Shown: piece after piece, positions 28,541 to 57,232 of the stretch
Layout of the letters: each line of letters starts with the position of its first letter
Position numbering within the stretch: the stretch's first letter is position 1
Assembly: GCA_019096065.1 (NCBI GenBank)
Contig: JAGUCH010000004.1
Coordinates: forward strand, 7,998,001-8,062,000
From: Paracyclopina nana
Taxonomy: Eukaryota > Arthropoda > Copepoda > Cyclopoida > Cyclopettidae
Direction of reading: 5' to 3'
Length of the DNA stretch: 64,000 nucleotides
Notes under the pieces: generated by a model
The model's input: the letters and a program-made list of their open reading frames with translations, nothing else
The model's database searches: none
Told to the model about the DNA's origin: nothing
Made by a program: the position numbers and the translations under genes

Positions 28541-29204
28541 ATTCTTTATGAGATACTCATTCATCGCACTTTGAAGCAATGTTGACCGATTTTTTCCTTG
28601 TGATATTTTGCCAAAATATTTTTTGTAATACCGTTAAAAATGTTTTACTATTTTGACGATTTCAAAAATTCTTTAAGCTTAGTTTAAAAATCTAACGACA
28701 CTTTGTAGCATTTCATTTAGCCTGAAAAACTGTAATAATTCTGAATCAGTTGTAAGGCGTGAGTTAGTAAATATTTCTTAAAGTCATAAATATGTGACAT
28801 TTTATGGTTTTTGTGCCAGTATTGAGACATGACAGTTGTGACATTGCTGACCCATAACGAGCTTTGCTCATGTGATTTGTGCCAACAAGATAAGATTTTC
28901 TGTTTGCGAAATGACCAGGGGGTAAAGGCATTTTACCAAAAATCATCCTAAGGTGAAAAAAAACTTCAGACATCTCAATTACCTCATTGTTTCCGTCCGA
29001 TTTTAAGGCCAAATTGCCACATTTATTCACACACAAAGTGGGCCCATGTGCCTGCAAAACTTTTATTGTTTCTGCTTACGTAAGTAAGAAATCTAGCTTT
29101 GAAATAACCTTTTTTGTCGTATGTTGTTATATAAGAATTGTGAAGTTGAAAGCATTATCATTTTTGACGAATCAAGTAATAAGAGATAGGGCAAGAGGTG
29201 ACAT
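28541..29204. other. no supported gene
   Basis: A - strand stretch near 28986-29053 has an acceptor-like TTTTGCAG, about 22 codons (reading CVNKCGNLALKSDGNNE) and a GTAATT donor. It is isolated, so it is noted but not called. Confidence 0.35.
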
Positions 29205-29875
29205 TTTGTGATAATTTGAGTTTTGTGATAATTTGAGACATTTTGAGATACAATGTGACATTTTATGACAATATGAGACTTTTGTGATACAATGTGACAT
29301 TTTGTGATACAACATGACATTTTGTGATACAATATGACATTTTGTGATACTATATGACATTTTGTGATAATATGAGACATTTTGTGATACAATGTGACAT
29401 TTTGTGATACAATATGACATTTTGTGATACAATATGACATTTTGTGATAATATGAGACATTTTGTGATACAATGTGACATTTTATGACAATATGAGACTT
29501 TTGTGATACAATGTGACATTTTGTGATACAATATGACATTTTGTGATACAATATGACATTTTGTGATAATATGAGACATTTTGTGATACAATGTGACATT
29601 TTGTCATAATATGAGACATTTTGTGATAATGTTAGACATTTTGTGAGAAAATGAGACATTATGTGATACTATTTGAGGTTTTGTGATATGACATGACATT
29701 TTGTGATACAATGTGACATTTTATGCTACAATGTGACATTTTGTGTTACACTGTGACATTTTGTGTAACAATGTGACATTTTGTGTAACAATGTGACATT
29801 TTGTGTAACAATGTGACATTTTGTGTAACAATGTGACATTTTGTGTAACAATGTGACAATTTGTGTAACAATGTT
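29205..29875. repeat. 20-bp minisatellite (TTTTGTGATACAATATGACA)
   Basis: Over 30 units. Sub-variants (ATATGAGACA, ACAATGTGACA) recur in the same order in two blocks of about 180 bp. The last 170 bp switch to TTTTGTGTAACAATGTGACA. Confidence 0.95.
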
Positions 29876-34473: not shown

Positions 34474-34630
34474 CGCTGATCTGATTAAAGTTGACAGTAA
34501 ATTGGCGTCAAAACTTGTTCCCATTGAGGAATTTGAGCCACGACGAGAGAATTTCAATGAGGAGAAAGGCTGGTTAGAAAACAAAAACAAAAGTGAAAGG
34601 AAAATTTTGGTTTTTTGTACATTTTGCTAA
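34474..34630 (+). CDS. possible terminal exon (51 codons)
   Basis: TGCTTTTACAG opens a frame ADLIKVDSKLASKLVPIEEF, then EPRRENFNEEKGWLENKN, ending in a stop at 34630. The acidic/basic composition and higher G+C differ from the array that begins 30 bp later. The required phase (2 bases carried over) matches the donor at 12,569, but a 22-kb intron would be out of scale with this genome, so the parent gene is unknown. Confidence 0.3.
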
Positions 34631-34659
34631 CGTTCTTTGCTATTAGTAATTTGTGTACA

Positions 34660-35110
34660 ATTGAAGGTGAAATTGTACAAGTGTGTACATTTTTGTATAA
34701 TTGTGTACATTCTTGTATAATTGTGCACATTTTTGTACAATTGTGCACATTTTTGTACAATTGTGCACATTTTTGTACAATTGTGCACATTTTTGTACAA
34801 TTGTGTACATTTTGTACAATTATATACATTTTTGTACAATTGTGTACATTTTGTACAATTATATACATTTTTGTACAATTGTGTATATTTTTGTACAATT
34901 GTGTACATTTTTGTACAATTGTGTACATTTTTGTACAATTGTGTACATTTTTGTACAATTATGTACAGTTTTGTACAATTGGGTACATTTTTGTACAATT
35001 GTGTACATTTTTGTACAATTATGTACAGTTTTGTACAGTTTTCTTGTACAAGTGTCTACAGTTTTGCACAAGTGTATTCAATTTTTGTTCAATTGTGTTC
35101 AATTTGGCAC
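34660..35110. repeat. 20-bp minisatellite (TTTTTGTACAATTGTGTACA)
   Basis: About 22 near-perfect units with TGTACA and CAATTG palindromes, so long ORFs open in several frames on both strands; these are artefacts of the repeat. Confidence 0.95.
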
Positions 35111-35664
35111 ATTTGTATTGTACAATATTCATTTGAACCATATAGTACTGCATGCCAACTTTTGCACAATTTCGTATTTTTGCACTATTTTTGTACATTA
35201 CTTCTAATTTAGAATATGAATGCATTCCTTCAATTTTATCCATTAGCACAATTTTGCTATTCAATTTTATTGTTCACCATGGCAAAGTGTGCTTTGCCTT
35301 TTTACGTTTGCCACCAATTAAAAAAAAAATCATTTCTGCTCTGTTTGAGTGCGCGCGCCTCTCTTTCTTTTTCTGACAAATTTGGGCCATTTTGATAATG
35401 AGGCACGGCAATAAACGTAGGGCCGAAGCTGGCAAATTGCAGGCTTCACCGCAAAATGCCGTGATCGCTCAACTTTACTGATTTGTGGCTCTAGGGCTGG
35501 AATAAAGCAATTTCATAAAATGCACCTTCTTTACCTATGCAAAACTCTCTTGACTTTGCGTACTTTGACTTTTTTCATATTCAGGCCATTTTCCGCGAAA
35601 ACCACTTACAAACATTTCACAACATTAAAAACATCTCAAAAATAAGATATTATTTTCTAAAGTG
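35111..35664. other. no gene seen
   Basis: Unique sequence with a GCGCGCGC patch at about 35351. Confidence 0.4.
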
Positions 35665-45176: not shown

Positions 45177-45577
45177 AACTACAAACAGAACGCACGCAAA
45201 ACTACAAATAACGGACGCGCACATGGATCTACAAAACTTTTTTTTATTATACCAACCGCACATGGACCTACACTGACCCCACTAAGTGTTTGACATCGCT
45301 TGGCCAAGTTAATAAAAGGGGCTGGCAAATGAGTCACTATGATTTGACACAAATGAGGCATTGCTTTTTTTGACTATAGGCCTACCCGATTTTTTTTGCT
45401 CAGCTCTTCAGGGGCCCCATGGGGTCGCCAAAACACCAAGGATTTTTTCTCTGCGTGGCCGGGAAGTGCCTCAAATTGAGGATTTTTATCCGCCTTGCCA
45501 TCCGCCATTTCGCGAATTTTTTTTTATCCCGGAGTTTTAATTTTTCCGTCAAATTGCCGCGCGTTAATTGCCAACTG

Positions 45578-45646
45578 TGACGTCACGTAAGCTCAAAAAA
45601 AACAAACAGCAACAGCTGCAATGTGCGGCTTGTGCGCACTGCGCAG
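45578..45646. promoter_or_regulatory. promoter-like motifs: TGACGTCA and TGCGCACTGCGCA
   Basis: A consensus CRE octamer TGACGTCA (45578-45585) and paired TGCGCA words (45633-45645, reminiscent of NRF-1 sites) lie in a CpG-rich patch 200-260 bp before the first intron-like sequence of the left arm. Function is inferred. Confidence 0.4.
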
Positions 45647-45839
45647 AATTGGAGGCTCAAATGTCTGAGACTTTTTGGTGATAATTACTGGAAAAAATGA
45701 GCTAAGATAAAACCGGGCCGAATTTCCCGAGATTTTCGGGCCATAACCCGGGCTTAACTGCCGGGAAAAGGAGCCAAGCATTGCCGAGGAAACGCGCAGG
45801 ATTCCCGTGAAAAAGAGGCCACGATTCCTGTGAACAAAG

Positions 45840-46446
45840 GTAAAGTTACTCTTAATTCTTTGTTTGAAATATTCAAAAAAGGATATTTTCAGAGCTCGTT
45901 CAGTGAAGTTAAGCAAAAAAGCCAGAGCTTCCATTAAAATGAGATTCGGCCGTCAAAGCAGCCTCATATTCCTAGACAAGAAGCCTCGGATTCGGCCATC
46001 AAAGCAGCCTCATATTCCTAGACAAGAAGCCTCGGATTCGGCCGTCAAAGCAGCCTCAACATTCACAGTCTGAAAGCCACGGATTTGGCCGTCAAAAAGC
46101 CTCGGATTCGGCCGTCAAAAAGCCTCGGATTCGGCCGTCAAATAACCTCGGATTCGGCCGTCAAAAAACCTCGAATTCGGCCGTTAAAGCAGCCTCAACA
46201 TTCACAGTGTAAAAGCCTCGGATTCGGCCGTCAAAGCAGCCTCAACATTCAGTCAAAAAAAAGCCTTGGAAGATTGCCATGGAAACAATCCATGAGAAAT
46301 TGGCTAAATTCTGGAGGAAAACGGGCCGTAATTCACAAAAAAAAGGCGCCGGAACTTAAAGGAGCCTAGATGCCAAATTCAAAGAGAAAAAGGTAAAATT
46401 ACCCTTATTTCTTTGCTTGAGATATAAAAAAAAAAGATATTTTCAG
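45840..46446 (+). other. exon flanked by two near-identical short introns
   Basis: 45840-45892 and 46393-46446 both run from GTAAA(G/A)TTAC to GATATTTTCAG, are 53 and 54 bp long and align at roughly 85% identity, including the CTTATTTCTTTG-like centre. The 500-bp exon between them has no single open frame, so the transcript may be non-coding or decayed. The second intron leads straight into the 174-bp repeat. Confidence 0.5.
45935..46260. repeat. repeat AGCCTCGGATTCGGCCGTCAA
   Basis: Units of about 21 bp (GCCTCGGATTCGGCCGTCAA) and longer ones of about 60 bp containing AGCAGCCTCAACATTCACAG alternate across the exon-like stretch; G+C is much higher than in the flanks. Confidence 0.85.
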
Positions 46447-47111
46447 CGCCAGTTCTGTGTTAAATTGAAGGCGTGGCCAGGTATGGCTGCAAACCCTTCG
46501 ACATGATACCCAGTCATCAGCCAACATTGTGGAGGCCAAGGATATTTGATGGGCCACGCCTACGGCCTCACAAGCACCCCTCACCTCGGCTGCCTGTACT
46601 ATGGAGTACAGTGGAAACGCAAGACCTTCAATATGACACGAGGGAGGGGCCGAGGCGTGGCTGCTAACCCATGGACTAGTTCACCAGACCTCAGCCAAAA
46701 TTCTGATGGCCAAGGATATTTGATGGGCCACGCCTACGGCCCCACAAGCACCCCTCACCTCGGCTGCCTGTACTATGGAGTACAGTGGAAACGCAAGACC
46801 TTCAATATGACACGAGGGAGGGGCCGAGGCGTGGCTGCTAACCCATGGACTAGTTCACCAGACCTCAGCCAAAATTCTGATGGCCAAGGATTTTTGATGG
46901 GCCACGCCTACGGCCCCACAAGCACCCCTCACCTCGGCTGCCTGTACTATGGAGTACAGTGGAAACGCAAGACCTTCAATATGACACGAGGGAGGGGCCG
47001 AGGCGTGGCTGCTAACCCATGGACTAGTTCACCAGACCTCAGCCAAAATTCTGATGGCCAAGGATTTTTGATGGGCCACGCCTACGGCCCCACAAGCACC
47101 CCTCACCTCGG

Positions 47112-47841
47112 CCAGGACTGCATACCCAACCTTCAAATACTCCCAAAACAAGATCATATCAGAATACATAAATTAGTAAACAAAGCATTATTCATAAAGA
47201 TTTGCTGCACATAAACAATCTGAACAATCTGAACATTCTGAACATTCTGAACATTCAGAACATTCTGAACAATCCGAACATTCTGAACAATCCGAACAAT
47301 CTGAACAATCTGAACATTCTGAACAATCTGAACATTCTGAACATTGTGAACAATCCGAACATTCTGAAAAATCCGAACAATCTGAACAATCTGAACAATC
47401 CGAACATTCTGAACAATCCGAACATTCTGAACAATCAGAACAATCCAAACATTCTGAACAATCCGAACATTATGAACAATCTAAACAATCCGAACATTCT
47501 GAACAATCTGAACATTCTGAACAATCCGAGCATTCTGAACAATCCGAACAATCTGAACATTCTGAACATTCTGAACATTCTGAACATTCTGAACAATCTG
47601 AACATTCTGTACAATCCGAACAATCTGAACAATCCGAACATTCTGAACAATCTGAACATTCTGAACAATCTGAACATTCTGAACAATCTGAACAATCCGA
47701 ACATGTTCAGTTTGTTCAGAATGTTCAGATTGTTCAGATTGTTCAGAATGTTCATAATTCATTAATGCTTTGTTTACTAATTTATGTATTCTTTTATGAT
47801 CTTGTTTTGGGAGTATTTGAAGGTTGGGTATGCAGTCCTAG
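47112..47841. mobile_element. 730-bp fold-back element inside the 174-bp array
   Basis: Ends are inverted repeats of about 90 bp, nearly perfect: CCAGGACTGCATACCCAACC on the left and CTAGGACTGCATACCCAACC on the reverse of the right. Each arm continues through CTTCAAATACTCCCAAAACA to AAACAAAGCATTA. The loop is a 9-bp minisatellite. The 174-bp array continues on both sides with CCCTCACCTCGG (12 bp) present at both junctions (47100-47111, 47842-47853), which would be an unusually long target duplication. Confidence 0.8.
47211..47712. repeat. 9-bp minisatellite (GAACATTCT / GAACAATCC)
   Basis: About 55 units of a 9-bp word forming the loop of the fold-back element. From 47704 the strand flips (TTCAGAATG...), showing the right arm also captured array units in inverted orientation. 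NILN/NNPN-type ORFs are read-throughs. Confidence 0.95.
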
Positions 47842-48022
47842 CCCTCACCTCGGCTGCCTGTACTATGGAGTACAGTGGAAACGCAAGACCTTCAATATGA
47901 CACAAGGGAGGGGCCGAGGCGTGGCTGCTAACCCATGGACTAGTTCACCAGACCTCAGCCAAAATTCTGATGGCCAAGGATTTTTGATGGGCCACGCCTA
48001 CGGCCCCACAAGCACCCCTCAC

Positions 48023-48300
48023 TCCCTTATTTTCCCTTATTTTCCCTTATTTTCAACTTATTATAAGTTTTTTTACGTAAGGTACAAATAAGTTTTTATG
48101 AAAATCTTATTATGAACTTATTTGCCAAAAAAAAAAAAGCGCCTCAATTTATGTCAACTTATTTTCAACTTCAAATAAGTCACTTATTTTGCTGACAATA
48201 AGTCACTTATAAAAGACTTAATAAGATCTTATCAAGGACAATTTATTTTTAACCTTAATGCAATTTTATTAAGTACTTAATAAGTTGCTTAAAATCACTT
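48023..48300. repeat. left subterminal repeats (CTTATTTTC, AACTTATT, ACTTAATAAG)
   Basis: Starts abruptly at the end of the 174-bp array with three CCCTTATTTT units, then many AAGTNACTTAT and CTTAATAAG words in both orientations. The right end of the element has the same words. Confidence 0.7.
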
Positions 48301-48535
48301 CTGGAAGTTCGAATGACTTGGCTAGTAATCGGAATTTCATTTTTTTATAATGAGGTTTTTTAATGTCATTAACAAAGTAAAACGAGAACTTTTGGAAATA
48401 AGCAATGTGTTGGCTTAAAAATGTGTTTATATTTCAATTTAAAATTGTTTCTTTGTTGAATTTTGACAATAGTATTCATAATCTTGATTTTGGAATGTTA
48501 AAATTTTCGCACTTTTTAACAATTTGTTAAAAAAG
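48301..48535 (-). other. 3' flank of the transposase gene
   Basis: AT-rich; no AATAAA on the - strand within 200 bp of the stop. The nearest is at about 48243, inside the subterminal repeats. Confidence 0.4.
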
Positions 48536-51500
48536 TTAAACAATAAAAGACTCGTTTGGAATTGCAAATATCACATTTCCGCAAGTGCCAGCCTTGCACA
48601 TGATTTCTTCAAATTGAATGACTATCTTTGATGGCGCATCATCATTTTTGGCAATTTGTCTTATAAAGACGTCATTTAAATCTAAATCACCGATTTCAGG
48701 GTAGAAGTGGCGTTGCGTTGAGATTTCTTCAGCAAGGAATCCTTCTGGATGGTCATCTGTCAGCTTGTAGTATTTGCCATGATAAGTCGCAACCAAGTTG
48801 TTACAGGCTCTTTTTGGACCCTCACGAATGGACAACTTCACTTTGGGTTTGCAGTTGTGGCGCTTCATGTTATTTATAAATGACTTGGTCATGACTTGTT
48901 TCGCAAAAGAAAGAGTATTTGGAATGATGATCCTTTTAAGGTAGGAGAAGTATCCTTCGAACTTGATTGCAGACATGGTACTTAGCAAACCTTTGCCACG
49001 CACTTGCAAAGTGTGGTTGAAAGCGTGAATATTAAATACGCAATTTTCTTCACCAAAAGCCTTTTCAAATTCTTCATAGAAGCGTTTGTGCCACAAAAGG
49101 GCTTTTTGTTCATTCATTTTGCGCGATATGATGCTATCAGGCATCAAGGCCATACGCACAATGACGACAAAGTAAATCCAAGTTCGACGAACAGAGCGGT
49201 AGACGTCACTTTGCAAAGCTTCATAAAAAGCTTGAAAGCCGCACACAATAATGGCCATAAATTCAACGGCTTTGTAATGAATGAAGCATGAATTCATTTC
49301 TCTTGGACGCCGAGGGAATTCATTTGGAATATCAGTTGCCATCCAAATTGTGTCGAATGCTTTTGAGACGACATTGCCTGCGTCACTTAGCCACTTTTGA
49401 TCTTTTTTCGGCTGGAGCACTAAGGTCATGATAAGGCGGCACACTCCCAAGTTAATGTTGTGCATGGGGTCAACAGGTGAGTCATCGATGATGGAAAAGT
49501 ATTCCAATCTGAGCAGAGGGCTGTATCCCTGAATGCCGTATCGTTTTGATTTCTGGATAGTGCCGGGTCGATCTCTAATAGCTTCCGCTATTTCAATCCA
49601 TTCAGCCATTGTGCGTGGCTTATACTTGGCTGTATAAGAGGGATACGTCATCTTTCGGAATTTCTTGTTGAACTTTCCAACAGCCAAACACCTCTCACAA
49701 GAGAAGTAGCCATTATGGCCAACGAACTCTTTAAATGCAGATCGCATTGGAGTGTCCCCCAAATACTTTCTCACTGTGAAATCGTTAAGAATGGCTTCAT
49801 CAATTATTTTGCTTATCAAATTCAGCATCTTTGTCTCATGTCCCTTTCTCTTAACTTGTATGGCCAATGGCCACACGTCTTGGCAGTCGTTGAACCTTAC
49901 ACATGTGACGTTCATTGATGCATCGCCACTTTTAGTTAAAGGCACGCCATCACTGAAAAGGTCCACTTCTTTCTTCCTGCCTTCCTCACTTTCGAGTGTT
50001 ACGTCATGAATCTTTAGAAAGAACTTGTAAAGTTCAAACAGTGAGACATATGCCCACTCACACATCATCTTGAATCTTGGCCTGGGGAACTCCTTACGTG
50101 GGTATTTGTCCCCTGCATGTGCGTAAGTTTCTTTGTCAACTGTATCAAAGAACTCATAGATCATCTTGATCTTTGGTATTTCCTTTTCGAAGTGCTTTCT
50201 AAGAGTTGGATAGGTGTACCAATCTCTGACGTCAGACATTAAAGCACTGACATAGTTCCAGATGACATTAGCCTGAATTTCTTTTAAGGCCAATTCACTG
50301 CACATTGCCATGTAGTTTTGGTAATAAGCCTCATCTTGTTGCTGTTCTGTTGGCAAATTGTCGAATTCGGCAAAGAGCTCTTCAAACTTTTGCCTACTCA
50401 TTTCACGCAATTTGTGAACTTTAGCATGACCATCGTCTGGGTCTACGTAGTCAGGTGCATTCATGCGCTCATCGACCTCTTGTAGGTATGCGTTGTAGTC
50501 GATATTCTGTGTTCCTTCTGTTGACCGCTCAGATACCTCCGCTGGAGTGCGTTCACCTGTCCTGGCAAGCAGTGATTCACTTACCTGAAAATCAAGAAGA
50601 GTAAAGTCATTATAAAGAAAAAATTGAATGGAAGTTTGTCATTTTACATTGTCATGGGAACTCATTTCATTTTCAGAACCAGTGAAATCTACATCTGCCA
50701 AATCATCATCGCTCCCGCTTTCTGCGTTATCTACAAAATCAGCTCCTTCAAGTACTAGTGGAGCAATGTTGTCGTTATCAACGTTTTCTTCATTTTCGGT
50801 GTCAGAAATTGTGTCACTGGCCTCCTCATCGTAGGAATCATTCACAAAAGTCTTTTCGCCATTTTCGAATAAGGCATTGTTAGCTTTGTTATCAATGTCA
50901 TTTTCATCATCCAATCCCACTATTTCAGGCAATTCTGGACTATCAACAGTGGGATCAATGACCTCTCGTCCAATTGGAGTTATCCTGTTTGATGAGATTT
51001 TTTCACCCGGATACAACTCTTGCGTGCCGAATTCAAGATTGTTGGTAAAGTCGTCATTCAATTCCCCTGAGGATTCGGACTCGTCGGCGTCACTTTGAGC
51101 ATTGTCGCGCACACTGGAAAAAGAATTTAATAAACGATTCGTAAGTGTTAATTAAATTGACGACTCACATATCAATCAATGATCCACTTAGACAGTGATC
51201 ACTACTGTCTCCTTTGGCGTAAGCATCAACACGTTCTTGCTCTCTTTGGCGTCGAATTTGCAGAAGAGCTTCATGTTTAGCCTTTATAACGGCCATGTCC
51301 ACAAACAGACCAGGACGTGGGCTTGGATTTCCAGTTGACGTCGACGGAATACCCAGTAGGTTGTGCGCTGCCCTTTCATACTGACTCCTGTTAAAGAGTC
51401 CCATTAATTCAAATAAAAGCTATGATTTTTTTTAAAAATGCCTTACTCATTGTCGACGCTTAAATTTTGAGTTCGAAGAATTTCTTCTGCACGAATCCGA

Positions 51501-51613
51501 TCTAGTTCTTGTTCGGCTTGCTTGGCGAGAAGTTTCTCTTTCTCACGTTGCAAGCGCTTCCTCTCTGTTGGTCCGAATCGCTTTTTAGGCCTTTTTTCAA
51601 TTTTGCGAGGCAT
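48536..51613 (-). CDS. CACTA/EnSpm-like DDE transposase, four exons
   Basis: Exons on the - strand: 51613-51447, 51387-51169, 51113-50648 and 50584-48536; introns of 59, 55 and 63 bp; phases 2, 2 and 0; 966 codons and a stop. Residues 1-130 are a basic, helical segment (MPRKIEKRPKKRFG at the start). Residues about 130-284 are strongly acidic. The catalytic part starts near 450. Animal CACTA-like transposases share a DG(V/L)PL block, then GHxGYFxCERC, an SPLL..YF block, DxMHxxxLGV and an FEGYF/FEN block. Here these read LFSDGVPL, GHNGYFSCERC, SPLLRLEYF, DPMHNINLGVC and IKFEGYFSYLK. Likely DDE residues are D496, D561 (LGDTP) and E827; the D(2)H motif is D656/H659 and the CxxC pair is C580/C583. 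No internal stop or frameshift. Family placement is from motif memory; catalytic residues are inferred. Confidence 0.85.
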
Positions 51614-52022
51614 TTTTCAATTTCATAGCGACAGCTGACTAGCGGAAAAATGCGATGACGTAGTTGTTGTCGTTGGCGTCGCTACTCAAACAGCGTTGTT
51701 CACGCAACCTATGTTGGTAATTAAAAATGCATTTTAATTAGTTTTCAGCAATCAATTGTGACATTAAATGATGATATCTAATTAGTAATCCCATTTCAAT
51801 TAATGCTAATGATGAATTGATTTGTTTTATTCGGTTACTAACGACTTTTTCGTGAAATAAGTTTTTTTTGTCTTAAAACAACTTACGTAAGTTGACGCAA
51901 GAATATTCTCGAATATTTCAGCTGTCGCAAAATTCAAAATAATTCGTGAATTCACCTGAGGCGAAAATAACGGTCGTCGCCATTGCGATTAAAGTTTAAA
52001 TTTCGACGCTAAAAGGTTCAAA
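51614..52022. promoter_or_regulatory. divergent intergenic region of the transposon genes
   Basis: 409 bp between two start codons facing away from each other, so both promoters must lie here. CpG- and GTCG-rich near the transposase start, AT-rich in the middle. Confidence 0.7.
51901..51919. promoter_or_regulatory. heat-shock-element-like motif
   Basis: GAATATTCTCGAATATTTC fits GAAnnTTCnnGAAnnTTn: three exact alternating pentamers and a fourth with one mismatch. It lies 104 bp upstream of the accessory ATG. Three inverted nGAAn units are the accepted minimum for HSF binding. Confidence 0.5.
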
Positions 52023-55000
52023 ATGAGTTCCCAAGCCCCAAAGGACGAAGCCGGGACAGAATATGATCGCCTTGTGATTCTGTACCTCAACGAGAACCCA
52101 CCGGCCACCCATATCGGCTTAAATGACGAACTTCCCGACGGTCGGACTGTGGCCGAGGCCATTACTTTTGATGCCACCATGCCCTTGAGCAATGCCCAGC
52201 GATTGCGGACCTTTCGCTACAAAGAGAAGGGCGAAGATGGATTCAGAGAGTTTTCTGTCCTCGCTCGTCTTGAAAAAGGTATTAATAAGATTTTCGACGT
52301 TGCGAATGAAGTGCTAATTTCTTCATTACATAGGACTCGAGCTCCACAGGATTCGCGACATAACAAGTCGCATTAATAAGCACTTCAGCGGTGTAATCGA
52401 GGCAAATAAAAGGTTGGCGATGAAATCGTTCGTGGTGAACAATTTCCCTGAAAAGGCCACGGTAAAGTACAACTACCCACAGTTTTTGCCTAGCGGAAAG
52501 GTCATCTACAGCCTATGGAAGGAAACTTCAACTCGCTCCAAGTCTAGGAAGAAGGCTCCTAAGACTGACGATCAAGCTGACTCGGATGATGATTTTAAGT
52601 CGCCGACCAAAAAGGCCCGAAAGGATACAGCGGAGGGGAAAACGCCGGGAAAAGGGAAAGGAGCCAAGACGGGCAAAACTCCGGTAAAGGCTACTAACCC
52701 TTTCTTCAAGAGTCCCCCAAAGAAGACACGAGGAAGAGCATCTAAAGGTGCTGATAAGAGCTTAGAAGCTCCGCCATCAAAGAAAGGCAAAGGCCGCGGC
52801 AAAAAGTCAAAGCCAACCGAGACGCCAACGTCAGCCTCAACAAATGAGCAGACAGAGGATGATCAAGAAATCGTCCAATTGTCATCTTCGTCTGATGATG
52901 CCATTAATAAGGCAAGCGACGCTAGCCAAGAGTCGGCATCTGCCAAAGACAAAGGTGCCGCCGATGATGCTAAAACATCTGATGTTACCGCAGACGCGGG
53001 CGAGATTGACAAGGAGGTAATAAATTAATTAACACCTCTACTATAAACCATAATAATCAATTCTTATGTTTTCAGACGGCGATTGAAGAGGAGGTGCTAT
53101 CCTTGACTCTGCCAGTGATGCAAGATGTGGTCGCTGAAAAAGGAAAACCTTTTGATGAGATGGACGACACCAAAAAAGAGGAAGTCTTGGATCAGGTTCG
53201 GAGCAAGATTAAGGACTTGGAGATGACACTATTCTTGAAGAAAGTCATCGGTGAAATCTACAACGACCTTATTAAGCCGAAAATTGACTCGATTGACGCT
53301 AAAATTGAGGCACTGTCCCAAATGTTCGTGAAGGAGATTACCGAGCTTAAGCAGAAGCCACTTGGCCGAGACGTAAGAGTTTTATTCCCTATTTAACATT
53401 TGAACTTCTAATTGCAAAAGTAACAAATCACTTTCTCAGCGTACGATGGCAATTTGCACTGAGATAAAGGCTCTCCTGTCAAACCTTTCCATTGAAACGG
53501 GAAAAGTTAAAAAGCAAATTGACTTAAACATTGCAACTAATGCCGACGCTAGAGCAAGAGCTTTGTCAATTATTTGCCGTGCAGTCCCCTGGGATTTGAT
53601 GGGACAGGCATGTGACGTCTTTTTTGCCAACCATCTCGTTCAAGACCTACTTGTGGGATACCTAATGCCTTGCTTTAATGGCATCGAAAACGAGATTGAT
53701 TATTACATTGCTAAGGCCGTTTGCCAAAAATTTTTCACAGTCAATGGACTCGCCCACTTGGTGCACAAGCACCCAAAAAGGTACAACTATTTGATATGAC
53801 GGCATCCATTGAAGCAAAGAACTTATAATTATCTTTTTAAGCTGGAAGAAGGCCTACTTCTTTAAGAGGCCTGTGCCAAAATCTCTGCTCAAGTTCATTG
53901 AGACCAGATTAGTCTCACGCCTACGAGAAACTTTTGGAATAGCTGAAGGAGCGGCGTTTGAAAACATGGAAATTATTAAAGACAGAATGTCTGTCAGGAT
54001 GTCTAACGCCAGAACAACCTTAGCTAGGGCTGCCTTCAAAAAGTCAAGGCGAGTTGAAGATGGCGTAGCTGCTTTTTATGACAACGACATGGAGCAATAT
54101 GGCGTTGTTCAGGTAAAGAATTAACTTAAGCTACAATAGAGTAGACACACATGTGAAGTCCTTTTTAATGCAGCATCTTTTGGATGAGCGTGTGCAGCCA
54201 ATGGTCCTTGATGAATACATTGCCAAAGTCATGAACTGCCGTGGTGAATACCGTGATGCCTTGGAAGACGAGGCAGAGGGCCGCTTCAATAAGGAAGCCG
54301 ATGTTGTGGAGCGAGACCATCTTTTCGATGAGTTCAGGAACGAGTCACGCAAAGCTTGGACTGTCAACGAAGTTATTAAGTTGATAATAGCGGCGGCTCA
54401 TACTTTAAAGAAAAATATTTATGAGCTCACTTACGATGAGCTCAAATTCATGCCAAATGTGAGTGAACTTTAAAAATAATTTTTTAAAAATGACATAACG
54501 TGTTATATTTTCAGTTGCCTGAAGTGCATGCTCAGGTATGTGATGAAAACATTGACAATATTGAAGATCTCATCCAGGAGTTCCCTATGGCGCCATTCCC
54601 AAATGTACCGGCAGGTACCCAAGGGAAATCTCCGCGTCGTCCATTTGTGCCGAGTCCTAGGAAATTCCCAGAGGAATACGCCAATCCTGCTAGAAAGGTA
54701 ATTATAAAGTCTTTTATGTCGCCGCAGTGACAATTAAAAATTCTTTCATTAACATGGTCTTGTTACACTAGCAAATTCTTCAAAGCGAATCCTCTGATAA
54801 CGACGACGGCCATAGGGACCTTATGGAAGAAGATACCAGTGAAGAACAATCTGAAGAAATTCTGAGTGATGACCTTAACAAAGGCTTAGTAAAGACGCCT
54901 GATGAGGATACTTCTTCAAATGTATCAGCCACTCCAGCCTCAACTACCGAAATCACTTTTGGCCCAACGGTGGAGACCACTCAAAATGTCAATACCACTT

Positions 55001-55354
55001 TCTTACCTCCGCCAGTGAGTCCCGACCTATTTTTAAGTTTACCTTGCCTTTGAAATAGCCTTCATAATTTTTTAGGCACCCAAATCTCGAGATCTAGTCA
55101 CTGAGAAGGATGTGGCAACATTCATGGAGACTCCAGGTCCGTCGGCAGGAATTCTCTCCCAATTGCTAACTCCGGCAGCAATCGCTGAACAACGTTTCCA
55201 AGAGGAACATAAGAAGAAGATGGCAAAGGAAGCTGAACAGCTAAGGGAGTTCGCCAGACTCAAGAGGGAAGTCGAAATGCGGAAAGAGGCCTTACGAAAG
55301 GCTGAAGAAGAATTCCTCAAGCAAGCTCAGTCTGAGGCAGCCGAAAAGGACTAA
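52023..55354 (+). CDS. 945-aa transposon accessory protein, nine exons, no recognised domain
   Basis: Exons: 52023-52278, 52334-53016, 53076-53372, 53440-53780, 53842-54112, 54174-54458, 54515-54697, 54772-55014 and 55076-55354; introns 55-74 bp, all GT-AG, all phases joining (946 codons with stop). Residues 1-160 are a folded-looking segment (LVILYLNENPPATHIGLND, RIRDITSRINKHFSGVIEA). Residues about 165-310 are Lys/Ser/Pro- and then Asp/Ser-rich, with several nuclear-localisation-like clusters (KKTRGRASKG, KKGKGRGKKSK). Residues about 320-710 are helical with cysteines and hydrophobic blocks (DLMGQACDVFFANHLVQDLL, FFKRPVPKSLLKFIETRL). Residues 712-850 are Pro/Ser/acidic. The last 60 residues are a charged coiled coil (EEHKKKMAKEAEQLREFARL). 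By position it may play the TnpA-like DNA-binding role of CACTA elements; that is inference. A nine-exon frame without a lesion indicates recent selection or recent arrival. Confidence 0.82.
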
Positions 55355-55454
55355 TTACTTTAATATGATATTGATACATTAAAAAAAACATTTCACATTA
55401 CATTACCAACATAACAATTCAATACAATATGTTTCTTAATACCTAAAAACCAAT

Positions 55455-55460
55455 AATAAA
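55455..55460 (+). terminator. poly(A) signal of the accessory gene
   Basis: AATAAA 101 bp after the stop codon, before the right subterminal repeats. Confidence 0.55.
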
Positions 55461-55479
55461 CGGCCAAAAATGAAAAATG

Positions 55480-55776
55480 ACTATTTTTTTAAAAAACTTA
55501 TCGACAGCTTATAAGAAAGCCTTAATAAGATGTTCACAGCCAAAATTTGAAAATGACAAAAATGTCAAAAAACTTACATAAGTTCTTATTAAGACTTTTG
55601 TAAGATTTTAAAATTCCAGATTTTAAGGAGCGGAAAAAATAAGGGTCAACTTATTTCAAGATTTATTGTCAACTTATTTGTCACTTATCACTACATATGT
55701 AGGTGGTAATAAGATTTGATTTTTCATTGATTTCAACAACTTATTCTCGGCTTCAGGCAAGTTGAAAAACTTAGTG
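55480..55776. repeat. right subterminal repeats of the CACTA element
   Basis: AACTTAT, CTTATAAG, CTTAATAAGA, ACTTACATAAGTTCTTA and TCAACTTATTT words match the left block at 48023-48300 in both orientations, ending at AAAAACTTAGTG. Confidence 0.7.
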
Positions 55777-55878
55777 GGGGAACCAAGCGCACTAAAGCTA
55801 CATTTAGCAGATACGCACGTAAACCTACATACAAAGCTGTCAGCACTATGAACACAGATGATTCGCACATGAAACTAC

Positions 55879-56590
55879 ATTTCACTAAACGCACCTAAGG
55901 AAAAATGGAAGTTGCGAGATTGTAGCTGTGTTATTATTACAATTTTCAGCCGCGTTTTTGGCCTCTAGCACACCGCACTGTGTAATAAAGTTTTTGAGTT
56001 AGGACTAGTTTTGGACTCTCTGCGTGTCTCTCTGGTGCGGAATAATGCTTTTGGGTGTGGCACAACAAGTTAAAAATGTCTCATCAGCAAGAGGCATTAC
56101 TTTAAAACTTTAAACAGATGTAAAACAATGATGTTGAAAATATTTCAAGTAATACAAATTATAAATGAATAATTGGGCAATCATAAATAACCAAAGCTGC
56201 ATTCAAGGTAGGTCCTTCTTGAAGCAAGTCAAAACAGCTTAGTTACATCATAAAAAATGAATTAACAGAGTAGCATTGACCAAGATATCCCTTAAATCAG
56301 TAAATAACGCTATACCAAAGATTAGATCAATTTATTATAGTCCAAACCACTTGTGACCAACATGTCATAAGCAGCCACTATTGCCTAAGGCATGTACCTC
56401 TCCATATGCTAGTATAGGTCTGAGACTACTTATGACAAAGAGCTCAAGGACATCTGGACTTGCCACTGGTGCATATGCTGCTAGCAGCTTGAGGCTGCCT
56501 GACCTCAGAGGCTGAGGCTGTTATCTCAAAATTAGCAAGATCTGGTTCTTGTAGCTGAGCAGAGGCCAGTAACATGCAGAAAACAACTCA
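55879..56590. other. interior of the outer element; no gene seen
   Basis: Unique sequence except for one old copy of part of the 170-bp unit at about 55948-56035 (CGCGTTTTTGGCCTCTAGC to GTTAGGACTAGTTTTGGACTC words). Confidence 0.5.
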
Positions 56591-57232
56591 TAGCCTGGTT
56601 TTTACTACTATGGGTGCGTTTTCGCGTTTTTTGGCTCTAGCCAAACGCACCATGTAGTGATGTTTTAGAGTTAGGACCAGTTTTGGACTCCTTGGGACCT
56701 AACTCATGAGGTCCAATCAGCTTTTGGACTTAGAGATGCCTCAAAGTAATTTTTGCCCCATAGCCTTGTTTTCATTACTATGGGTGCGTTTTCGCGTTTT
56801 TTGGCTCTAGCCAAACGCACCATGTAGTGAAGTTTTTGAGTTAGGACCAGTTTTGGACTCCTTGGGACCTAACTCATGAGGTCCAATCAGCTTTTGGACT
56901 TAGAGATGCCTCAAAGTAATTTTTGCCTCACAGCTTGGTTTTTATTACTATGGGTGCGTTTTCGCGTTTTTCGGCTCTAGCCAAACGCACCATGTAGCAA
57001 AGTTTTTGAGTTAGGACCAGTTTTGGACTTCTTGGGACCTAACTCATGAGGTCCAATCAGCTTTTGGACTTAAAAATGCCTCAAAGTAATTTTTGCCTCA
57101 TAGCCTGGTTTTTATTACTATGGGTGCGTTTTCGCGTTTTTCGGCTCTAGCCAAACGCACCATGTAGCAAAGTTTTTGAGTTAGGACCAGTTTTGGACTT
57201 GTTGGGACCTAACTCATGAGGTCCAATCAGCT
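56591..57232. repeat. 170-bp tandem repeat, 3.8 copies
   Basis: Units start at 56591, 56761, 56931 and 57101, exactly 170 bp apart, with few differences. Each carries ATGGGTGCGTTTTCGCG, a CCAAACGCACCATGTAG word and GACCTAACTCATGAGGTCC (AACTCATGAGGT is partly palindromic). It sits between the inverted CGCAC/GTGCG motif arrays. Confidence 0.95.

Follow-up and report, generated by a model that had tools for sequence, protein, structure and literature searches.

The window analysed here, a 64,000-nucleotide stretch of Paracyclopina nana DNA (C4:7998001-8062000 in a 92-Mb genome of 10 contigs), contains a 10,503-bp copy of a DNA transposon at positions 45277-55779. The copy carries two divergently transcribed genes, here called gene A and gene B, and its native length is about 7.77 kb once a nested insert is discounted. 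The element is real and recently mobile. It very probably represents a divergent CACTA-like lineage in the CMC/CMCT group of transposons, with CCC ends and 2-bp target-site duplications, that moves by an autonomous two-gene mechanism; this classification and this mechanism form one joint reading. Termini and a catalytic signature of this kind were already known. What is new is a transposase lineage that has no Pfam model, together with an orphan partner gene conserved in a fixed orientation.

Borders, copies and target site

The element is bounded by a perfect terminal inverted repeat of just 11 bp, CCCCACTAAGT at the left end (45277-45287, plus strand) and ACTTAGTGGGG, as read on the plus strand, at the right end (55769-55779, minus strand). 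The outermost bases are CCC, and a CACTA string begins at base 4. A GA dinucleotide adjoins each end (45275-45276 and 55780-55781), forming the left and right copies of the target-site duplication. Two sister copies with identical ends and unrelated flanks were found, one of 7,771 bp (C4:1022654-1030424) and one of 17,026 bp (C8:1056948-1073973). The three copies differed from each other at 0.35-0.52% of sites over the approximately 3.45 kb compared. We also found a paralogous empty site, in which a repeat on C7 (L071) joins the two flanks of the window element without the element; it has TA once where the window has GA twice, a difference of one base. The borders are therefore fixed by the sister copies, the 2-bp duplications and the empty site. 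A preliminary description of this DNA had reported matching ends, which were confirmed, and had proposed a search for further copies with the same ends and borders, which the two sister copies share.

Target-site duplications were checked in 19 elements of the window's clade (clade 1 of the gene A tree described below), comprising all 16 full-size pairs of ends and three of the 22 short ones. A 2-bp duplication was present in all 19, and a 3-bp duplication in none. CACTA as the true terminus, with CCC/GGG lying outside it, was ruled out by the 2-bp direct repeat found beyond CCC/GGG in 19 of 19; CCC and GGG themselves stand in inverted orientation and so do not constitute a duplication. The recent activity proposed in the preliminary description was borne out, since copies 99% identical to one another have clean 2-bp duplications.

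Gene A

Gene A (48536-51613, minus strand) encodes a putative transposase of 966 amino acids in four exons (51447-51613, 51169-51387, 50648-51113 and 48536-50584). Mechanical splicing of its three introns yielded 966 codons with no stop or frameshift, and the same treatment of gene B removed eight introns to leave 945 codons, again with no stop or frameshift. All 11 introns of the two genes are GT-AG introns of 55-74 bp. The two lesion-free spliced genes that had been described, with eleven introns keeping frame, were thus reproduced exactly. The accompanying description of the element as intact holds for its genes and ends; the 10.5-kb length is not native, as a 2.7-kb nested insertion lies within it.

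The last exon of gene A, used as a genome query, gave at least 70 matches, a lower bound given that 65 of 236 candidates were scored, and a script grouped these matches into 63 loci. The frame was open over at least 575 of 682 residues in 52 of the 70 matches. The tree was built from alignment A3, whose 26 rows are that of the window plus 25 fetched ones. It resolved two clades with support of 100/100, the window's clade with 12 rows (clade 1) and a second with 14 (clade 2). A third group (clade 3), 28-34% identical, is known from genome-search matches alone. The 63 loci were assigned to clades by identity bins, and two were placed by hand, C2:2568791 in clade 2 and C1:6439669 in clade 1 (by ends).

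Residues D212, D277, C296xxC299, H520xxxH524 and E543 were invariant in all 26 rows. Judging by their pattern, these are probably the catalytic residues, and the motifs, together with the copies left behind, lead us to infer that gene A is the transposase. A Pfam match to Tricorn_C1 (E 0.0023, five of 26 rows) was taken as chance. Searches of viral contigs and genome contigs for relatives of alignment A3 gave nothing usable, and genome-wide searches for PF02992 and PF06869 carry no information, as no control genome matched either.

The gene A frames are under clear purifying selection. The ratio of nonsynonymous to synonymous change (dN/dS) was 0.06 for the pair L026/L027 and 0.25 among the three sister copies, the latter resting on four differences each. 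Synonymous change was saturated in eight of the 14 gene pairs compared, in which dN was 0.12-0.19. These values were computed on the longest open frame of each gene, and some intron sequence may be counted among the first codons. Domestication of the gene pair by the host would explain the selection, the intact frames and the few copies per family, and the low ratio of L026/L027, the small number of near-identical gene A copies in each family and the many open matches fit that idea. However, we regard it as extremely unlikely in view of the clean terminal repeats, the 2-bp duplications, the near-identical dispersed copies, the short derivatives and the empty site.

Gene B and the divergent gene pair

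Gene B (52023-55354, plus strand) encodes a partner protein of 945 amino acids in nine exons (52023-52278, 52334-53016, 53076-53372, 53440-53780, 53842-54112, 54174-54458, 54515-54697, 54772-55014 and 55076-55354). Several of its exon borders are shared with the relatives L038 and L048 (about 38% identical), in which the introns contain in-frame stops, and the clade 2 gene L094 retains one gene B intron kept in L038 and L048. By eye, two parts of the protein are conserved, the N-terminal one and a core at about 412-712. Its linker is rich in lysine and includes an NPFF-like motif, and its charged tail is probably a coiled coil. A Pfam match to PIN_5 (E 0.02, one of five rows) was taken as chance.

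The start codons of the two genes are separated by a spacer of 409 bp (51614-52022), presumed to be a divergent promoter. Gene B matches from two queries were paired with the gene A loci, and 54 of the 63 loci proved to have a divergent A-B pair; these counts refer to sequence matches rather than to expressed genes. The pairing used 122 gene B rows, excluding second-exon rows of the same gene. One gene B search scored 48 of 590 candidates and the other 150 of 207, so the counts are lower bounds and gene B copies not found may be search misses. Divergent gene B was present at 21 of 21 loci in the window's clade, with one B (on C9) lying 13 kb off. It was also present at all 23 loci of clade 2, where the script by itself gave 20; the three loci it called "other", which stand in tandem or next to another locus, were reassigned, as the nearest B was the neighbour's and each has its own divergent B. 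In clade 3 the number was 10 of 19. At none of the 63 loci was B found solely in another orientation. The back-to-back pair, which the preliminary description considered uncommon, is a real arrangement, and it is no curiosity of one copy, given its recurrence among related loci and a similar layout in the fungal Sly1 elements discussed below.

At G000:C2:2564500-2587300, three clade 2 elements form a tandem series that repeats about every 8.3 kb, and every one of them has a divergent A-B pair of its own.

Terminal and subterminal repeats

A 14-position pattern of the clade 1 end matched the genome 91 times, while the reversed control matched 0 times. Of these matches, 76 formed 38 facing pairs, namely 16 full-size elements (including the 10.5-kb and 17.0-kb copies with inserts) and 22 short elements of 1.0-1.8 kb, eight of them exactly 1,353 bp long. 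The clade 2 end gave 54 matches against 0 for its control, and these formed 21 pairs. In total, 27 of the 145 end-pattern matches were left unpaired (15 of 91 and 12 of 54). CCCCACTAAGT was found 435-660 bp past gene A in 14 of 14 loci (L002-L015). Likewise, CCCAGCGAACCC was found in 13 of 15 loci (L016-L030), and L016 carries a variant ending in CCCACGAACCC. Among 10 clade 2 elements, a 2-bp duplication was present in eight, a 3-bp repeat in one and neither in one.

The subterminal AAGT/CTTAT repeats reported in the preliminary description also proved genuine. The left subterminal region (48047-48340) is rich in ACTTAT/ATAAGT, with 10 copies counted in 48023-48340, and the right one (55480-55768) is rich in ACTTAT, with six copies counted in 55480-55779. 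The corresponding shuffle means were 0.42 and 0.30, with a maximum of three in 200 shuffles each. Within the interior (48540-55354), three copies were counted against a shuffle mean of 3.04, which is the chance level. On the gene A side of relatives (330 bp each, counted without a shuffle control), two to five copies of ACTTAT were present in L004, L005, L007, L008 and L009, and none in L010, L011, L012, L013 and L015. ACTGCT, ACTGCA or GCAGTA were among the most frequent hexamers in L010-L012. The subterminal motif thus seems to vary with lineage, as would be expected if a protein of the element reads it.

Proposed mechanism

We propose that the element is an autonomous cut-and-paste transposon. 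Gene A would encode a DDE transposase, acting as nuclease and strand-transfer enzyme to excise and reinsert the element. Gene B would encode its constant partner, whose most likely task is to bind the subterminal repeats or to control the transposase. It may support excision, much as a second protein does in some plant CACTA elements. The 409-bp spacer would drive both genes, and the 22 short elements that share these ends would probably be mobilised in trans.

Several points weigh against this two-gene reading. Expression and splicing of both genes are predicted from the gene models. When the 26 gene A rows were compared with Pfam at E ≤ 10, no transposase was among the 11 families listed, and the gene A profile gave one match in the PDB, at a non-significant E of 1.7. 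As for an RNase H fold, a single-sequence prediction for one gene A exon of the window was discarded, with a mean predicted local distance difference test (pLDDT) score of 33. The core and other pieces of gene B had no significant match in Pfam, and its best PDB E-values (0.11 and 0.33) were not significant. Gene B is an orphan, whose accessory role is suggested by its position and conservation. A B match was missing at nine of the 19 clade 3 loci in the two-query search, and two of the 10 clade 2 elements have no 2-bp duplication. Finally, for 65 of the 122 listed gene B matches no gene A match lies within 15 kb, as at C3:509993, C1:4859922 and C2:8446499. These may belong to more distant A genes or a further divergent clade, or may be solitary B copies.

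The solitary matches and the missing domain assignment would also suit a gene B that is a passenger rather than a transposition factor, such as a silencing suppressor or a host-interaction protein. Against this, a divergent B adjoins A at 44 of 44 clade 1 and clade 2 loci (21 and 23), and the A genes that go with the solitary B matches may be too divergent for the query or may have gone unscored. We therefore consider a passenger rather unlikely and prefer a role for gene B in transposition. A wider proposal, to which we would give very nearly an even chance, is that the element belongs to an ancient, undescribed CMC lineage built as an obligatory two-protein A-B machine. Gene B would then be a new family of transposition co-factors reading lineage-specific subterminal repeats, and the pair would have diversified into dozens of low-copy, largely intact elements in one animal genome.

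Relation to known transposons

The motifs of CMCT transposases are given as D, D, C(2)C, H(3)H and E (PMC12730594). Gene A has this CMC/CMCT catalytic signature, and its superfamily was judged by motifs. The CMC/CMCT target-site duplication of 2 to 5 bp agrees with the 2-bp duplications found in 19 of 19 clade 1 and eight of 10 clade 2 elements. The termini of the group are 5'-CA..TG-3' "in most cases", a feature that is not strictly defining; those of the present element are instead CCC..GGG.

CCC ends and 2-bp duplications have been described for animal TRC elements, with a duplication in seven of 14 SmTRC1 copies (PMC1636069), and for Spongebob/EnSpm-4N1_HM of Hydra (PMC4298943). Both features, CCC as the first three bases and 2-bp duplications, are found in our element, and the clade 2 end CCCAGCGAAC is close to Aedes CCCAGTCAAC and Hydra CCCAGCCAAC ends. 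SmTRC1 and other animal TRC elements likewise have truncated derivatives; a divergent second gene is unmentioned for them in the text consulted of these two articles. These similarities might reflect true membership of the animal TRC group, as kin of SmTRC1 and Spongebob, with a transposase that has drifted beyond its Pfam model. However, the published box I motif of the TRC Transposase_21 was found in none of the 26 gene A rows, the DG-WP spacing was longer where both were present, and the Pfam listing for gene A at E ≤ 10 did not include Transposase_21 (PF02992). TRC membership is plausible, though we lean somewhat against it, and we have filed the element in the wider CMC/CMCT group rather than in TRC because of the absence of box I.

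Plant CACTA (En/Spm) elements have two genes, subterminal repeats, a DDE transposase, terminal CACTA and 3-bp duplications (PMC4158355, PMC8978399). The first three of these features are shared with the window element. The element also has a CACTA string inside its terminal repeat, and the preliminary description had classed it as CACTA-type. This remains appropriate in the sense of a DNA transposon with a CMC catalytic signature, and does not extend to the plant type. CACTA is not outermost, the inverted CCC/GGG standing there instead, the duplications were 2 bp in every clade 1 element checked and never 3 bp, and the commoner clade 2 ends, CCCAGCGAACC, have no CACTA. The lack of a listed PF02992 match and of box I, mentioned above, counts against it as well. 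A strictly plant-type CACTA/EnSpm element, with CACTA termini, a 3-bp duplication and Transposase_21, is therefore very unlikely. In the well-studied plant CACTA elements, both genes are transcribed in one direction. The superfamily check that had been recommended for the transposase, made here from motifs, thus supported the CMC signature in all 26 rows and gave no support for Transposase_21.

Mirage (DUF1258) and Chapaev (DUF1280) are also placed in the CMC group, and their motifs are C(2)C and H(3-4)H; the Pfam listing for gene A contained neither DUF1258 nor DUF1280. Chapaev has CAC..GTG ends and generally 3- to 4-bp duplications (PMC4079192). A precedent for the layout has been published for the fungal element Sly1. 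Sly1-1 of Neurospora crassa is an 11.5-kb CMC element with C(2)C and H(3)H motifs and a second gene of unknown function, and homologues in Chaetomium are adjacent and divergently transcribed (PMC4592977). The two Sly genes are NCU09969 and NCU09968. Sly1 thus resembles the window element in its CMC signature, its second gene and its adjacent divergent pair. The recurring divergent pair, seen also in this fungal relative, suggests that balanced output of both proteins may matter for transposition.

Within the part of the literature that was covered, which did not include Repbase or subscription journals, we found no animal CACTA-type element with a divergent gene pair. That portion of the animal literature deals with ends, fragments and single transposases, and a two-gene animal element is not described in detail there. 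Here, one small genome holds three related groups with many open transposase frames, near-identical sisters and 1- to 2-kb derivatives. It offers a natural test bed for why a second gene is carried and whether the subterminal repeats co-evolve with the protein that this gene encodes. For the specialist, the value lies in the conserved two-gene architecture and its breadth, which is useful rather than shocking.

Nested insertions

The window copy moved recently, and another repeat later inserted into it, on the stretch from its left end to gene A. This repeat, of 2,729 bp and from an unrelated family, occupies 45318-48046. Both sister copies have the first 41 bp of the element followed almost directly by the sequence equivalent to 48047. 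Absence of the segment from both identifies it as a later insertion and rules out native subterminal sequence. Its right edge is uncertain by about 20 bp owing to TTATTTTCCC repeats. The first 1,183 bp of the insert had 141 matches in the genome, including itself, and 28 of these began exactly at its first base, which indicates a separate repeat family. Relatives are present on contigs C1-C9. The first 250-310 bp of this family are found in facing pairs as well, separated by about 1.7-3.1 kb, which suggests a transposon that has long inverted repeats at its termini and tandem arrays inside.

The insert carries a 174-bp tandem array, which is interrupted by an apparent third element. This probable third-level insertion (47110-47843) consists of 81-bp inverted repeats flanking an 18-bp minisatellite. 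In a relative on C8 (L069), the array sequence from either side of this segment forms one continuous run. A different insertion, of about 9 kb (C8:1063970-1073252), interrupts gene B of the C8 sister copy within intron 8. At the position corresponding to 55048-55051 it shows an overlap of 4 bp, such as a retrotransposon might leave.

Neighbourhood of the element

Elsewhere in the window, an open reading frame at 3-1535 matched alpha-spectrin (E 2.6e-242), in keeping with an animal source, and by eye this gene seems to continue through the frames up to 4862. Two long open frames, 29096-29668 and 34597-35209, are built of short tandem repeats with CHIVSQN-like and CTIVHIFVQL-like units and are probably minisatellites rather than genes. 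Just to the right of the element, a 170-bp tandem array extends from 56587 to 57226, and a 68-bp part of its unit is also found at 55951-56018, adjoining the insertion site.

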